Source of the DNA: an uncultured Myxococcales bacterium
GTDB taxonomy: Bacteria; Myxococcota_A; Polyangia; Polyangiales; Polyangiaceae
Assembly: GCA_937872925.1 (NCBI GenBank)
Contig: CALMUT010000260.1
Coordinates: 1 to 64,000, forward strand
Length of the DNA: 64,000 bases
Direction: 5' to 3'
Shown here: positions 39,822-47,696 of the stretch, piece by piece
How the letters are laid out: the number at the start of each line of letters is the position of its first letter
How positions within the stretch are numbered: the stretch's first letter is position 1
Notes under the pieces: model-generated
What the model saw: the letters and a program-made list of their open reading frames with translations, nothing else
Told to the model about the DNA's origin: nothing
Databases searched by the model: none
Made by a program: the position numbers and the translations under genes

Positions 39822-40823
39822 GTGCGACGGCTTTCGGTCATCGCCGGCGCGCTACTGCTCTTGCTGCTGCTATCCGTCGTTTCTGCGGTCAGTTTCGGCG
39901 CCCACGCCATCGATGTGGGCCGCGCCATCGACGACCCGAACAGCCTGGACGGAGTGATCCTGTGGAGCGCGCGGGCGCCGCGGGTCCTATTGGCGGCGTT
40001 GGCGGGGGGCGCGCTGGCGGTCGTGGGCGTTGCTTTCCAGGCGTTGCTACGCAACCCCCTGGCCGACCCCTACGTTCTGGGCGTCTCCGGGGGCGCCGCC
40101 GCGGGCGCCACGTTGGCCATCGTTGCCGGCGCGAGCGCCTTCACGCTACTGGGCGCCGCAGTCGTGCCTGCCGCCGCCATGGTGGGCGGGCTGTTTGCGA
40201 CCTTGCTGGTCTACGCCATCGCACGCGCCGGCGGCGAAGTGAGCGGCACGACGATCGTGCTCGCTGGAGTGATCGTCAACGCCACCTTCGCGAGTCTGAT
40301 CACATTCATCAAGACCCTGGTCAGCGCATCCAAAGCCCAAGAGTTGCTGTTTTGGCTGATGGGCTTTTTGGATGTGCCGTCCACCGCGCAGCTGATCGCG
40401 TGTGCCATCTGGGTGGCCCTGGGCATCACGATGATCGTGCTCGACGCGGGCCGCCTCAATATCTTGTCCCTGGGCCGCGAACCCGCGCAGCACCTTGGCA
40501 TCAACGTCCGAAACTTGGAGCGGCGAGTCTTCTTCGCCGCATCAGCGGTCACCGGCGCCATCGTGAGCTTGACGGGCCTGATCGGCTTCGTGGGACTGAT
40601 CGTGCCGCATGCCGCCCGCCGCATGCTCGGCCCCGATCACCGCAGCCTGATCCCCGCAGCCATGTTGCTGGGCGCGTCCACGCTGGTATTTTGCGATCTG
40701 GCTGCGCGGGTGGCGTTTCACTACCTCGGCACAGAGCCTCCCGTGGGCGCCGTCACCGCCCTGGTGGGCGGCCCGCTGTTCCTCGTGATCTTGTACCGGA
40801 CGCGTGTGCGCGGCGCCGTGTGA
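39822..40823 (+). CDS. FecCD/BtuC-family ABC transporter permease
   Basis: This 333-residue inner-membrane protein has about ten membrane helices. Family marks: RAPRVLLAALAGGALAVVGV, FQALLRNPLADPYVLGVSGG, GREPAQHLGIN, ASAVTGAIVSLTGLIGFVGL and PHAARRMLGPDHRSLIP. Such permeases import Fe-siderophores, haem or cobalamin with a binding protein and an ATPase. Neither partner gene is in the window. The 3' end (codons for T-R-V-R-G-A-V-stop) is the left copy of a 31-bp direct repeat whose second copy lies at 44138, so what followed this gene originally may have been displaced. Confidence 0.93.
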   Translation: MRRLSVIAGALLLLLLLSVVSAVSFGAHAIDVGRAIDDPNSLDGVILWSARAPRVLLAALAGGALAVVGVAFQALLRNPLADPYVLGVSGGAAAGATLAIVAGASAFTLLGAAVVPAAAMVGGLFATLLVYAIARAGGEVSGTTIVLAGVIVNATFASLITFIKTLVSASKAQELLFWLMGFLDVPSTAQLIACAIWVALGITMIVLDAGRLNILSLGREPAQHLGINVRNLERRVFFAASAVTGAIVSLTGLIGFVGLIVPHAARRMLGPDHRSLIPAAMLLGASTLVFCDLAARVAFHYLGTEPPVGAVTALVGGPLFLVILYRTRVRGAV

Positions 40824-42252: not shown

Positions 42253-42969
42253 TCATTTCGCATGCCGTGGTTGGTTCGAGAGCGAGCTCTTCACCAGCAC
42301 GGCGTCCGCCCAATACGCGCCGGTCCCGCCGCTCGGCAAAATGTCGTAGGTGCGCGCAGCGTCCAGTTCGATGCGTTCGACACGAAGCACTTCGGCGCCG
42401 TCCACCCGATCGCCGCTTCGGAGATCGCCAAAAACTCGACCGTCGGTCAGAGGGTGTCCCGCGGACGCCGCGACGCGCCGTCCATCGGTCAGATAGAAAC
42501 GTACCAGCTGGTGATGTTTCGGTGCGAGGACAGAGCCGACGTGCTCGATCACGCCAACCACTCGGCGACCTCGGTCGTCGAGGGTCCAAACCTGCATGCC
42601 CGTGCGCAGCGCGCTCACCTTGCGCGCGCCATCTGGCGTTGCGATCTGGGCGCCGCCGGGCAGGCAAATCGGGCAGCCGTATTGTTTCCGACTCTTGGCG
42701 TCTTCCTGGCTGAGCCAAGAGAAGCCGGGTGCGGGGTCACCTTCCTGGGCGACCGGTGGGCCGCAGTCTTGGACGCACTCGTGACCGGGACTGGGCGCGG
42801 GCCCCTGGCAATTCCCGTTTGCGACGGGCGCGGTCGGCACGGGGCCCGGCGTCGGCGTGATTGTTGGCTCAGGCGCCGGCGTCGTGGACCCGGAGCCAGG
42901 TCCAGCTCCCGCGCAAGCGGACAGCGCAACGACACCAACGACACGCAAGAGCACGGCACAACGGCGCAT
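42253..42969 (-). CDS. Lipoprotein with a Hint (intein-like) domain
   Basis: This 238-residue protein starts at ATG 42969, leading to lipobox LSAC. A Pro/Thr/Ala tether runs to about residue 50 (TPAPEPTITPTPGPVPT). A Cys-containing stretch follows (GHECVQDCGPP), then from about residue 95 a Hint fold: nucleophile-position Cys in CLPGGAQIATPDGA (intein block A), VWTLDDRGRRVV, block-B-like ASAGHPLTDGRVF with the His, and ARTYDILPSGGTGAYWADAV near the end, where inteins have a YDLxVxxxHxFxAxGVLVHN block. The terminal Asn is missing, so protein splicing is unlikely, but N-S acyl shift and self-cleavage at the Cys is possible. It is divergent from the metallothionein operon. Confidence 0.82.
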   Translation of the reverse strand: MRRCAVLLRVVGVVALSACAGAGPGSGSTTPAPEPTITPTPGPVPTAPVANGNCQGPAPSPGHECVQDCGPPVAQEGDPAPGFSWLSQEDAKSRKQYGCPICLPGGAQIATPDGARKVSALRTGMQVWTLDDRGRRVVGVIEHVGSVLAPKHHQLVRFYLTDGRRVAASAGHPLTDGRVFGDLRSGDRVDGAEVLRVERIELDAARTYDILPSGGTGAYWADAVLVKSSLSNQPRHAK

Positions 42970-42994
42970 GCACCACACGCTATCAAATGGTCGT

Positions 42995-43024
42995 TTGGCT
43001 CGCTATGCGGGAGCTGGGTGTAAT
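42995..43024 (+). promoter_or_regulatory. Candidate vegetative promoter of the metallothionein operon
   Basis: TTGGCT (42995-43000) and TGTAAT (43019-43024, five of six matches to TATAAT) are 18 bases apart. They lie in the 124-base space between the divergent Hint lipoprotein and the first metallothionein-like gene. An ECF-type promoter recognised by the sigma factor encoded downstream could overlap this region, but I cannot identify one. Confidence 0.35.
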
Positions 43025-43093
43025 GGGCAGCGGGGCTCGGCGTCAGCGGGATAGATGGGCCCAACTTCTCGGAGCCCAAAGGAGAACGCGACC

Positions 43094-43255
43094 ATGTCCA
43101 ATACTGAAACCAACGCTGCCTGTTGCCCCTGCGACAAAACCGGCTGCGAATGCGTCCCTCGCCCCCAGGAGCCGGCACGGGAGCGCGGCTGCTGCTGCGG
43201 TCCCCTGTGCCAGTGCGGACCGGCGTGCCGCTGCCCAAGCGGGTGCGGCTGCTGA
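43094..43255 (+). CDS. Metallothionein-like protein, copy 1
   Basis: This 53-residue protein starts at ATG 43094 behind a clear Shine-Dalgarno (AAAGGAG at 43078-43084). It has 14 Cys: at 10, 11, 13, 18, 20, then 33-35, 39, 41, 45, 47, 51 and 53, mostly as CxC and CC. Cys makes up a quarter of the protein, with no aromatic residues. The C-terminal cluster CGPLCQCGPACRCPSGCGC is the dense metal-thiolate part. It should bind soft metals such as Cu(I), Zn(II) or Cd(II) in the cytoplasm. It is the first of three genes; the second product has a related core and the third is a Cys-tailed sigma factor. Confidence 0.88.
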   Translation: MSNTETNAACCPCDKTGCECVPRPQEPARERGCCCGPLCQCGPACRCPSGCGC

Positions 43256-43267
43256 GGGCACCGAAAT

Positions 43268-43297
43268 CCCGCCCCGGCGCTGTAATGCCGGGGCGGG
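43268..43297 (+). terminator. GC hairpin between the two metallothionein-like genes
   Basis: CCCGCCCCGGC (43268-43278) pairs perfectly with GCCGGGGCGGG (43287-43297), an 11-bp stem with an 8-base loop. It lies 12 bases after the first gene and 41 before the second. It has no T tract, so it may be an attenuator or mRNA-stabilising element, giving more of the first protein than of the second. Confidence 0.5.
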
Positions 43298-43338
43298 GCG
43301 TGCGTCAGCTCAGTACGGACCCCAAAAGGAGACGGACG

Positions 43339-43515
43339 ATGTGTGATGAAAGCTCGAATCGAACCTGCACGCCCCCCCTGGCATGGCGACGATTTCGCCC
43401 CGGACCCAGCGTGTGCCCTTGCGGACCGGGCTGCCCCTGCGGGGTGCGCTGCCGCTGCCCCGACGGCTGCGTGACCACGCCCTCCGAAACCGCCGAAGGG
43501 GCCCAGTGGGCGTGA
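43339..43515 (+). CDS. Metallothionein-like protein, copy 2
   Basis: This 58-residue protein starts at ATG 43339 behind AAAAGGAGA. It has nine Cys; seven are in the core CPCGPGCPCGVRCRCPDGC (26-44), which matches the CGPxCxC pattern of the first protein. Its leader sequence, with a shared CCCAAAGGAG-type start, also resembles that of copy 1, so the two are probably paralogues. Compared with copy 1 it has lost the N-terminal Cys cluster and gained a Trp/Arg stretch and an acidic tail. Its stop overlaps GTG 43512 by four bases (GTGA), a possible start of the sigma gene. Confidence 0.8.
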   Translation: MCDESSNRTCTPPLAWRRFRPGPSVCPCGPGCPCGVRCRCPDGCVTTPSETAEGAQWA

Positions 43516-43541
43516 CGGTGGCCACCGCGAGCTCGGTTAAG

Positions 43542-44123
43542 ATGGACGCCATGGCCGAGACGCCGGCAAACGCCTCCTCTTCCGACGCGGCGCAGGACAC
43601 CGTTCGCAAGCTCGTCGCGGAGCACCGCCGCTTCTTGGCGTTCCTCGAACGGCGCCTGGGCGACCGCGCCCTGGCCGAAGACGTCTTGCATCACGCGTTC
43701 GTGCGCACTTTGGAGCGGGGTGGGGAGCTCAGGGATTCGGAGTCGGCGGTGGCTTGGTTCTACCGCATGCTGCGCAATGCGGTCACGGACCATCACCGCC
43801 GCAGCGGCGCCGCGCGGCGTGCGCTGGGCGCCTTCGAGCGCGAACTCGCGACCACAACGGAGGGCGGAGGTGAGCTACGTGAAAGCGTGTGCGAGTGTAT
43901 TTTTGAACTAGCGAGCACGCTGAAGCCGGAATACGCGCTAGCGCTCACGCGGGTCGAAGTCGACGGGCTCGCGGTCAAGGAGTTTGCCAACGAGCTGGGC
44001 ATCACGGCGAACGCAGCGGGCGTGCGAGTGTTTCGTGCACGCGAGGCACTACGTCGGCGACTCAAGGAGTGCTGCGGCAGCTGTGCCGAACACGGCTGCG
44101 TGGAGTGCCATTGCAAGGTGTGA
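43542..44123 (+). CDS. CorE-like ECF sigma factor with a Cys-rich tail
   Basis: This 193-residue protein (from ATG 43542; GTG 43512 would add ten residues) has region sigma-2 (FLERRLGDRALAEDVLHHAF) and sigma-4 (LAVKEFANELGITANAAGVR, then VFRAREALRRRL). A CxC (Cys117, Cys119) sits between the two regions. The last 17 residues carry six Cys and two His (CCGSCAEHGCVECHC, 177-191). Sigma factors of the CorE type (ECF44 group, Myxococcus xanthus) have such a Cys-rich tail that senses metals directly, without an anti-sigma factor. None is encoded here. It most likely activates the two metallothionein-like genes, and itself, when a soft metal binds. Confidence 0.88.
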   Translation: MDAMAETPANASSSDAAQDTVRKLVAEHRRFLAFLERRLGDRALAEDVLHHAFVRTLERGGELRDSESAVAWFYRMLRNAVTDHHRRSGAARRALGAFERELATTTEGGGELRESVCECIFELASTLKPEYALALTRVEVDGLAVKEFANELGITANAAGVRVFRAREALRRRLKECCGSCAEHGCVECHCKV

Positions 44124-44204: not shown

Positions 44205-44888
44205 TTACTTCTCGTAGAGCTGCGCTGCGGCGATGCCAGCGCCGCCCGCAACCTCGACCACCATCTTGACGGGCAGGCCGAAGGGCGCGGGGTTCTTGTA
44301 ACAGTTCGGCTTCTTGCCGAGCACCGCTTGGGGACCGGTGCCTTGGTCTTGCGCCAACACCATCGCGGATCCGGGGATCGGCGTGACGGCAACGAACTTG
44401 ACGTTCACTTCCGAGATCGGCGGGAGGCCTGACGCGACCACCGTGTAGCACTTGCCGGCGTTGAGCTGGATCTGAGTTTCGAGGGTCTGGCCTTGCTGGA
44501 AGTTACCCACCAGGGCCGAGCCAACGGGCTTGGCACCAGGCATGGCCTCTGCGGTCGCCATTTGGTTCAGGATCTGCGTCGCGGCCGCGCCCAGAGACGG
44601 GTCCATCGGCGTGGCAGCGCCACCACCGGAAGGCTGTGTTCCGGGCATCGGGGCAGTCGTCGGCTGAGTGGTGGGCTGCGGCGCGGGCTGCTGCTGATAG
44701 CCCCCAGGCTGCTGCTGATAGCCACCGGGCTGCTGTTGATAACCACCGGGCTGCTGCTGATACCCGCCGGGCTGCTGCTGGTAGCCAGCCTGCTGGTACT
44801 GGGCGTCTTGGCCCTCATCCTTTTTCTTGCAGCCGACAACCGTCGTCAACACCAGGCAACCTACGACACCAAGGATCAAACTTCGCAT
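44205..44888 (-). CDS. Lipoprotein with YQQQPGG repeats
   Basis: This 227-residue protein starts at ATG 44888 behind a GGAG. It has signal peptide, lipobox TTVVGC and a KKKDEG stretch, which may favour retention or sorting. Five or six tandem YQQQPGG heptads follow (21-bp DNA repeats, about 44687-44786), then a Pro/Thr linker. The C-terminal 120 residues are a compact beta-type domain (GQTLETQIQLNAGKCYTVVA, VKFVAVTPIPGSAMVLAQDQ, NCYKNPAPFGLPVKMVVEVA) resembling other myxobacterial envelope domains of unknown role. The repeats are probably a flexible stalk and may vary in number between strains. Confidence 0.82.
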   Translation of the reverse strand: MRSLILGVVGCLVLTTVVGCKKKDEGQDAQYQQAGYQQQPGGYQQQPGGYQQQPGGYQQQPGGYQQQPAPQPTTQPTTAPMPGTQPSGGGAATPMDPSLGAAATQILNQMATAEAMPGAKPVGSALVGNFQQGQTLETQIQLNAGKCYTVVASGLPPISEVNVKFVAVTPIPGSAMVLAQDQGTGPQAVLGKKPNCYKNPAPFGLPVKMVVEVAGGAGIAAAQLYEK

Positions 44889-44903
44889 GACTCGCAACTC
44901 CAA

Positions 44904-46025: not shown

Positions 46026-47696
46026 TCAGCTGCGCCGCTTCGCGCCCGTTTTCTTCTTCTTCTTCTTCTTCGCAGACTTGGGCGACCCGCTCGCTCTAGG
46101 CGACCCGCTCGCTTTGGGCGACCCGCTGGCTTTGGGCGATCCGCTGGCTTTGCCCGCCTGGATCTCGCTATCGGACTTTCGCTGCGAGACAGGACGCACG
46201 TCCGAATGCTCGTCGTCTGCGTCTTCGTCGCCTGCGTCTTCGTCGCCTGCGTCTTCGTCGTCTGCGTCGTCTGCGTCGTCGTCGCCTGCGTCTTCGTCGT
46301 CGGCGTCGGCGTCATCCTTGGAGATCTTGGAGACCTTGGAGACCTTGGAGCGCGGGGTCTTCTTGGACGGCTTCGGTTCCTCGGGCAAGGAGCGTTCCCC
46401 GGCGTCGTCTTCGTCCTCGTCTTCGTCCTCGTCTTCGTCGTAATCCGTCGCCCCCTCGCCAAGCGCCATGGCAGCCTCGGGGTTTTTCTTGGCAGCCTCG
46501 AACAGAGCGCCCCAGACCAAGGCGGCTGCCACTCCGGTGCTGAGGCCGATCCACTGAGACGTCGACAGCTGCACCGCGGTGCCCTGGGCGAAGCTTGCCG
46601 GCTTGAGCAGAAAGAAGAGCACCGGTGCCGGCAGCAGCGCGGCAACCTGCGCGATGCGCCGCGGCGTGTCTTTTGCGATGGAACGCGCTGGACCAAACGC
46701 AAAAGCGAGACCAAATGCCAGCGCCGTCCCAGGCAACACGACGTGTTCGCCCAAGTATGGCCCAAAGGTGCCGCGCTCCAGATCATCCCGCAGCACTTCC
46801 AGAGCGAAGCGCAGCGCGCCGTAGCCTGCGGTGAAGGCCAAGAAGACTTGGCCACGGAAGCGCTGGTGCTTTCTCGCGGCGAATACCAGCGCTAGCAGCA
46901 GCAGCCCTGCGCCGACTTCGTACAGCTGCGTGGGATGCACCGGCAGCGACGCGCTGGTGTCCGCAGAGAGCCCGCGCTGATTGACATGCTGGATCCACGC
47001 GGGTGAACCCGTTCCTTCAAGCGCAGTGCCGTCGGCCCACTTTGGAAACGTGCCGATGGTCTTGAGCCAACTCGGCGCCGAATCCGAGAGCGGTTTGCCG
47101 AAATCGCAACCGTATAGGTAGCAACCCAGCCGCGTGATCACGAGGCCCGCGGCCAAACTAGGCACGGCAACATCCGCCCAGGGCAGCAACCGGATGCGGT
47201 GCCGGTACAGAAAGCCCCAAGAACCAAGGAAGCCCCCCAAGAATCCGCCGTAGGCAACCAAGCCACCTCGGCGCAGTGCGAACAGGTCGTTGAAGGACGA
47301 GAACTCGTCCATGTTCGTCACCACATACAGCAGACGCGCGCCGATCAGTGCCGCGACGGCGGTGACGAAGTAGCAATTGGCCATCACCTCTCGGGGCAAA
47401 CCATCTTTGCTGGCCAAGCCGAGGGTCAGATACCAGCCCACGATAATGGACAGGCACAGCATCGCGCCGTAGGAATACACGGGCAGCGGCGTGAGGGTGT
47501 ACACCTCCCCACGGAAGTTGAAGGCGGCGAAGCCAGCGCCAACCGCCGCCGCCACGCCGATGACGAGCAGGTCGGTGGCGCGCTTGCGATAGCCAAAGAG
47601 CGCGAGCAAGACGCCGACCGCCGCCAGCGCAAGCAGCGCGGGGAACAGGGGGATCGTCCAGCCCGGCAGGGGGATGCTAAACAAGATGGGGTGCAT
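46026..47696 (-). CDS. lgt: Prolipoprotein diacylglyceryl transferase with a long charged tail
   Basis: This 556-residue protein moves diacylglycerol from phosphatidylglycerol to the lipobox Cys of prolipoproteins, in the inner membrane. Lgt marks: YSYGAMLCLSIIVGWYL, GARLLYVVTN, RRGGLVAYGGFLGGFLG, ITRLGCYLYGCDFG (in place of RxGNxxNxExxG) and LPVHPTQLYE. A second group of membrane helices follows to about residue 405. The last 150 residues are disordered and highly charged: an acidic run (YDEDEDEDEDEDDAG), repeats of ADDEDAGDE, four KASGSP-type hexapeptides and a run of seven Lys. Such a tail is not part of normal Lgt (about 260-300 residues). This window has 16 likely substrates. Confidence 0.92.
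   Translation of the reverse strand: MHPILFSIPLPGWTIPLFPALLALAAVGVLLALFGYRKRATDLLVIGVAAAVGAGFAAFNFRGEVYTLTPLPVYSYGAMLCLSIIVGWYLTLGLASKDGLPREVMANCYFVTAVAALIGARLLYVVTNMDEFSSFNDLFALRRGGLVAYGGFLGGFLGSWGFLYRHRIRLLPWADVAVPSLAAGLVITRLGCYLYGCDFGKPLSDSAPSWLKTIGTFPKWADGTALEGTGSPAWIQHVNQRGLSADTSASLPVHPTQLYEVGAGLLLLALVFAARKHQRFRGQVFLAFTAGYGALRFALEVLRDDLERGTFGPYLGEHVVLPGTALAFGLAFAFGPARSIAKDTPRRIAQVAALLPAPVLFFLLKPASFAQGTAVQLSTSQWIGLSTGVAAALVWGALFEAAKKNPEAAMALGEGATDYDEDEDEDEDEDDAGERSLPEEPKPSKKTPRSKVSKVSKISKDDADADDEDAGDDDADDADDEDAGDEDAGDEDADDEHSDVRPVSQRKSDSEIQAGKASGSPKASGSPKASGSPRASGSPKSAKKKKKKKTGAKRRS
46081..46152 (-). repeat. Four tandem 18-bp units in the lgt tail
   Basis: Four 18-base units encode (K/R)ASGSP four times. 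Neighbouring DNA (46200-46300) is a set of GACGAAGAC-type trinucleotide-like repeats that encode the acidic tail. Both are slippage-prone. Confidence 0.85.

Follow-up and report, generated by a model that had tools for sequence, protein, structure and literature searches.

Two short cysteine-rich genes and, directly after them, an ECF sigma factor are encoded on the forward strand of the window (the whole stretch of 64,000 nucleotides that was analysed), an arrangement which confirms that given by the first-pass annotation. The three genes are accompanied by two copies of one promoter element and by a GC-rich hairpin, the features being located as follows.

43019..43047, forward strand: promoter P1, TGTAATG-N15-CGTCAGC, 46 nt before MT1
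43094..43255, forward strand: metallothionein-like gene 1 (MT1), 53 amino acids, 14 Cys
43267..43298, forward strand: GC-rich hairpin after MT1, 13-bp stem, loop CTGTAA with the -35 core of P2
43281..43309, forward strand: promoter P2, TGTAATG-N15-CGTCAGC, 29 nt before MT2
43339..43515, forward strand: metallothionein-like gene 2 (MT2), 58 amino acids, 9 Cys, with a 19-residue core common with MT1
43512..44123, forward strand: CorE-type ECF sigma factor, 203 amino acids, whose predicted GTG start overlaps the MT2 stop as GTGA
43890..43898, forward strand: linker CxC, C127-E-C129, between sigma2 and sigma4, invariant throughout the alignment of 72 sequences
44070..44114, forward strand: Cys-rich tail C187-C188-x2-C191-x4-C196-x2-C199-x-C201, five of its Cys invariant in 72 aligned sequences

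Both short products have the small size, the high cysteine content and the CxC repeats of bacterial metallothioneins. MT1 is free of histidine and its ribosome-binding site is AAAGGAG, that of MT2 being AAAAGGAG. The core which the two have in common, C-x-CGPxCxCGxxCRCPxGC, was matched by none of 1000 shuffles. Neither product matched a family in Pfam or NCBIfam, so that homology to a described metallothionein family was not found; for MT1, in addition, the PDB gave no convincing match, and a protein search of 59 relatives yielded only two weak ones, too divergent, one of which (G070) sits behind the same promoter element. The name metallothionein therefore rests on composition, context and promoter, and both peptides would probably bind metal.

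The GC-rich hairpin, with stems at 43267-43279 and 43286-43298 and a z of -2.85 for the region, is real, as had been noted at first pass. Nevertheless, its role as a mere spacer between the two genes did not stand, since P2 overlaps it: TGTAA, the -35 core of this promoter, sits in the loop. Its function as an intrinsic terminator was considered and rejected, as it is not followed by a T run. A transcript reading through from P1 would carry the hairpin, while one from P2, which from the position of the -10 should start at about 43313-43316, would be without it.

The surroundings of the locus have some traits of their own. A Hint-type (intein-like) domain protein, with a weak Hint_2 match below the cut-off, lies divergently just upstream (42253-42978, reverse strand), and a FecCD-type permease, part of an importer for siderophores or B12, is found 2.3 kb upstream (39822-40823, forward strand). 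On the other side are a lipoprotein-like ORF (44205-44903, reverse strand), close to whose N terminus about five GYQQQPG repeats stand in tandem, and a prolipoprotein diacylglyceryl transferase (LGT match; 46026-47696, reverse strand) with an unusually long C-terminal tail made of acidic runs and KASGSP repeats.

Domains and cysteines of the sigma factor

Sigma70_r2 (PF04542) and Sigma70_r4_2 (PF08281) both scored above cut-off, and the protein consists of sigma2 and sigma4 domains only, as in ECF factors, which its predicted fold also resembles (structure match; model pLDDT 73). Membership of SigZ (TIGR02959) was discarded, the score being 95.7 bits against an equivalog cut-off of 168.65 bits.

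The first-pass annotation had pointed to a CxC between the two domains and to a tail with six Cys and two His as in CorE-type factors, and both were found as described. The tail, KECCGSCAEHGCVECHCKV, holds C187, C188, C191, C196, C199 and C201 together with H194 and H200, and C127-x-C129 lies between sigma2 and sigma4, where CorE-type factors have their CxC. In the alignment of 72 members C127, C129, C188, C191, C196, C199 and C201 are invariant, as the CxC and five tail Cys already were in an earlier alignment of 13 sequences. The tail spacing, C-x2-C-x4-C-x2-C-x-C, is that of C181, C184, C189, C192 and C194 of CorE from Myxococcus xanthus, whose Cys-rich domain is needed for copper activation (PMC3107203). 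Among these residues, C188, C191, C199 and C201 correspond at identical spacing to CorE 181, 184, 192 and 194, the four tail Cys which the CorE paper called invariant (PMC3107203).

A further sigma, encoded on a Phenylobacterium zucineum plasmid and found by protein search, has in the alignment both the CxC and these four tail Cys and is without the Cys189 equivalent; since it was the sole match on the plasmid, it is taken to be PHZ_p0174 of the list in the CorE paper. The cysteine spacing, the CxC and the alignment with this plasmid member support the assignment of the present sigma to the CorE type (former ECF44); CorE itself is left unclassified in the 2021 scheme, according to PMC8999054. 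The plasmid gene itself is surrounded by genes of universal stress proteins, has a cation transporter at a distance of 3 kb and does not adjoin copper genes, which suggests that CorE-type sigmas may also serve other responses.

Control by an anti-sigma factor, the finding named at first pass as speaking against direct sensing, was also considered. The neighbours examined (the Hint-domain protein, lipoprotein-like ORFs, FecCD permease, phosphoesterase and Lgt) include no anti-sigma gene, in keeping with the CorE type as regards linked genes. The proposal that the tail resembles a piece of a metallothionein had to be abandoned, since about 700 of 1000 shuffles gave a local alignment as good, the likeness being one of composition only.

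A promoter element shared with related sigma factors

The element was recognised by reading the DNA upstream of metallothionein-like genes which adjoin related sigmas, and consists of TGTAATG or TGTAAGG, 15 bases and CGTC, often followed by AGC. The window holds two exact sites, while 100 dinucleotide shuffles gave none. At first pass it had been suggested to look for an ECF motif within 42970-43093, which is where P1 lies; P2 is a second copy, before MT2. Sigma-70-type promoters were not found in the region. The long form, TGTAATG-N15-CGTCAGC, has only two exact matches in the 9.4 Mb of the own genome, namely P1 and P2. Two further matches to TGTAAKG-N15-CGTC in this genome were set aside, being without AGC and without a metallothionein-like gene behind them (bases read by eye). 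The genome also encodes two copper-type P1B ATPases, and the element was not found upstream of either, up to 1.5 kb from the matched domain; efflux may thus have another regulator, and the sigma may serve storage only.

Within the same family, 52 of 108 genomes encode relatives of the sigma (E < 1e-20; the best at about 50-60% identity), and the element occurs together with them: it was found in 22 of the 52 sigma-bearing genomes and in 2 of the 56 sigma-free ones (p = 9e-7), against p = 0.15 for a reversed control pattern. Its sites in the family genomes numbered 28, against 8 for the control, and across the class (290 genomes) 28 sites of the long TGTAATG form were counted, against 2 for controls. 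These genome-wide scans represent a partly independent check, as some of the loci used for recognition were recovered there too. A scan of public genomes gave 80 sigma loci, labelled Myxococcota, Acidobacteriota, Planctomycetota, Gemmatimonadales, Nitrospira and others, although the labelling of records derived from metagenomes may be imprecise. At a spacing of 15 there were 56 sites, in 40 of these 80 loci, whereas each of the other spacings tried gave 0-4 and shuffles gave 0.65, counts which include loci where the element had been noticed.

The exact element is absent from 30 of the 52 sigma-bearing family genomes, so that either its sequence is variable or the motif was defined too narrowly. 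In the Myxococcus clade almost every locus is without it, and a search for a promoter consensus in this clade gave nothing convincing; together with the AAC-containing -35 of CorE, this suggests that CorE may read another sequence. Near-identical DNA was not found on plasmids.

The genes behind the element point to metals. Behind family sites are P1B ATPases with YHS or heavy-metal-binding domains and an HMA-type ATPase, as well as multicopper-oxidase-like, outer-membrane-efflux-like and cupredoxin-like proteins and metallothionein-like ORFs, identities which were read from translations without a family scan. A Pfam scan of the genes adjoining 66 and 70 sigma loci gave E1-E2 ATPase, HMA, cupredoxin, multicopper oxidase, HMBD, YHS and OEP as the commonest domains. 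A metallothionein-like ORF follows within 150 bases behind 23 of 85 distinct sites and behind 177 of 20000 random positions (0.9%), a 30-fold gap in which the first count is somewhat generous, since some of the sites, including loci that entered the 85, had served to recognise the element. Two of the metallothionein-like ORFs behind family sites (L145, L156) lie on contigs apart from the sigma.

The search for the same gene set in other genomes, which had been proposed at first pass, was fruitful: about 16 of 80 public contigs, several phyla being represented, have a metallothionein-like gene next to a related sigma, and a relative of the same genus has TGTAAGG-N15-CGTCTGC, a metallothionein-like gene and the sigma in that same order. 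Mapped onto a tree built from 88 sigmas, the metallothionein-linked label requires at least nine changes, compared with 18.3 for shuffled labels, which indicates a linkage that is clustered and yet recurrent; this tree was a quick one with many weak forks, its well-supported branches alone forcing only three changes. One well-supported clade (L108, L085, L093, L095 and L113, with the labels Nitrospira, Terriglobia and Bryobacteraceae) has in every member a metallothionein-like gene and a sigma in divergent orientation, separated by the promoter.

A proposed metal-responsive circuit

We consider it highly probable that the locus is a metal-activated three-gene module with positive feedback, in which a CorE-type sigma acts on P1 for MT1 and on P2 for MT2 and its own gene, and the metallothioneins bind metal. 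Cytoplasmic metal, most likely copper, would bind the Cys-rich tail, with the linker CxC helping, and the sigma would thereby become competent without the need of an anti-sigma factor. The active sigma would read TGTAATG-N15-CGTCAGC, so that P1 (43019) would transcribe MT1, and P2 (43281) would transcribe MT2 and the sigma itself, making the response self-amplifying. The MT1 and MT2 peptides would then bind the metal and, more speculatively, its withdrawal may shut the sigma off, as was reasonably proposed at first pass.

Copper is our best guess for the activating metal. The residue which sets the Cd/Zn specificity of CorE2, Cys174 (PMC9023288), is equivalent to Ala192 here, and on this basis copper would be predicted over cadmium and zinc, by analogy for the present branch. 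The equivalent of CorE Cys189, needed for copper activation, is kept as C196, so that the residues are those of the copper subtype. The same module might instead respond to zinc or cadmium, in the manner of CorE2, or to silver, gold or mercury, its peptides being metallothioneins of the Zn/Cd type. Thiolate-only peptides are known to bind many soft metals, the extra C187 alters the tail with respect to most relatives, and elsewhere in the own genome (L161; C202) a MerP-like HMA protein with mercury-transport-like neighbours is found. Nevertheless, Ala192 and C196 argue against such a metal, as does the fact that the genes adjoining related sigmas and their promoters are mainly those of copper-type ATPases, multicopper oxidases and cupredoxins, and we regard this alternative as rather unlikely.

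Far less probable is that the sigma senses oxidants through its cysteines, the peptides acting as thiol buffers with no role in storing metal. Although redox activity is in general conceivable too for Cys-rich tails and for small peptides of this kind, in relatives this promoter stands before genes of metal efflux, and the cysteine spacing equals that of a tested metal sensor, CorE. It could also be argued that the two short ORFs are chance or decayed Cys-rich frames beside an ordinary sigma, and that the promoter repeats drive the sigma only, given that they have no family match and that GC-rich DNA occasionally yields such frames. However, both start soon after a promoter of their own and a good ribosome site, their common core was not reproduced by shuffling, and in relatives the promoter is found before metallothionein-like ORFs at 30 times the frequency seen for random positions, in some cases away from the sigma; this explanation seems to us the least credible of all. 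In the metal-activated module, as we prefer to read the locus, the entire regulon of the sigma in this genome could be the two metallothioneins and itself, the products taking the metal back in a self-ending pulse, and related sigmas of several phyla could share the promoter, in part linked with metallothioneins and in part with efflux. This wider proposal is put forward tentatively, and may well prove incorrect.

Several known systems resemble parts of this arrangement. In cyanobacteria SmtA, a small metallothionein, is under the metal sensor encoded beside it, SmtB, as is proposed for the present locus; in that case, however, the regulator is an ArsR/SmtB repressor, the metal is zinc and the genes are divergent. 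In Mycobacterium tuberculosis the small metallothionein MymT is induced by copper as part of the RicR regulon, which includes the gene of the regulator itself (PMC10141476), a self-inclusion also proposed here, but RicR is a repressor of the CsoR family, whereas the present regulator is a sigma factor. In architecture the present sigma resembles CorE of M. xanthus, an ECF factor free of an anti-sigma, with the linker CxC, the tail C-x2-C-x4-C-x2-C-x-C and copper-type neighbours in the family. CorE differs in its targets (cuoB, copA, copB and the gene of an HMA protein, whereas the exact sites here precede two metallothionein-like genes and the sigma only), in its AAC-containing -35 in place of TGTAATG, and in a distal Cys206 which the present sigma is without. 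CorE2 of M. xanthus (ECF44/ECF238), activated by cadmium and zinc, has the same architecture and CxC and differs at the specificity residue; in the literature searched it is not described together with metallothioneins.

The first-pass statement that CorE-type factors are described with efflux pumps and oxidases, not with metallothioneins, holds for the open literature searched, which ties them to ATPases, an HMA protein and multicopper oxidases and contains no link to a metallothionein (the 2016 CorE2 work and the 2021 ECF classification being covered via later papers). The pairing is nevertheless not unique, as the public contigs described above demonstrate. The kind of regulator is therefore known, and what differs is its metallothionein targets, its apparent limitation to two exact promoters and the TGTAATG promoter, although their novelty is not assured.

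Few ECF factors read their signal themselves, the CorE-type sigmas being among them, and this locus and its relatives add metal storage to their likely targets. In addition, a testable consensus, TGTAATG-N15-CGTC, becomes available for a large branch extending across phyla, and searching behind it offers a way to metallothioneins too short or too divergent for family models. With three genes and only two exact sites, the module would represent a simple natural system in which a metal buffer and its sensor share one ion.
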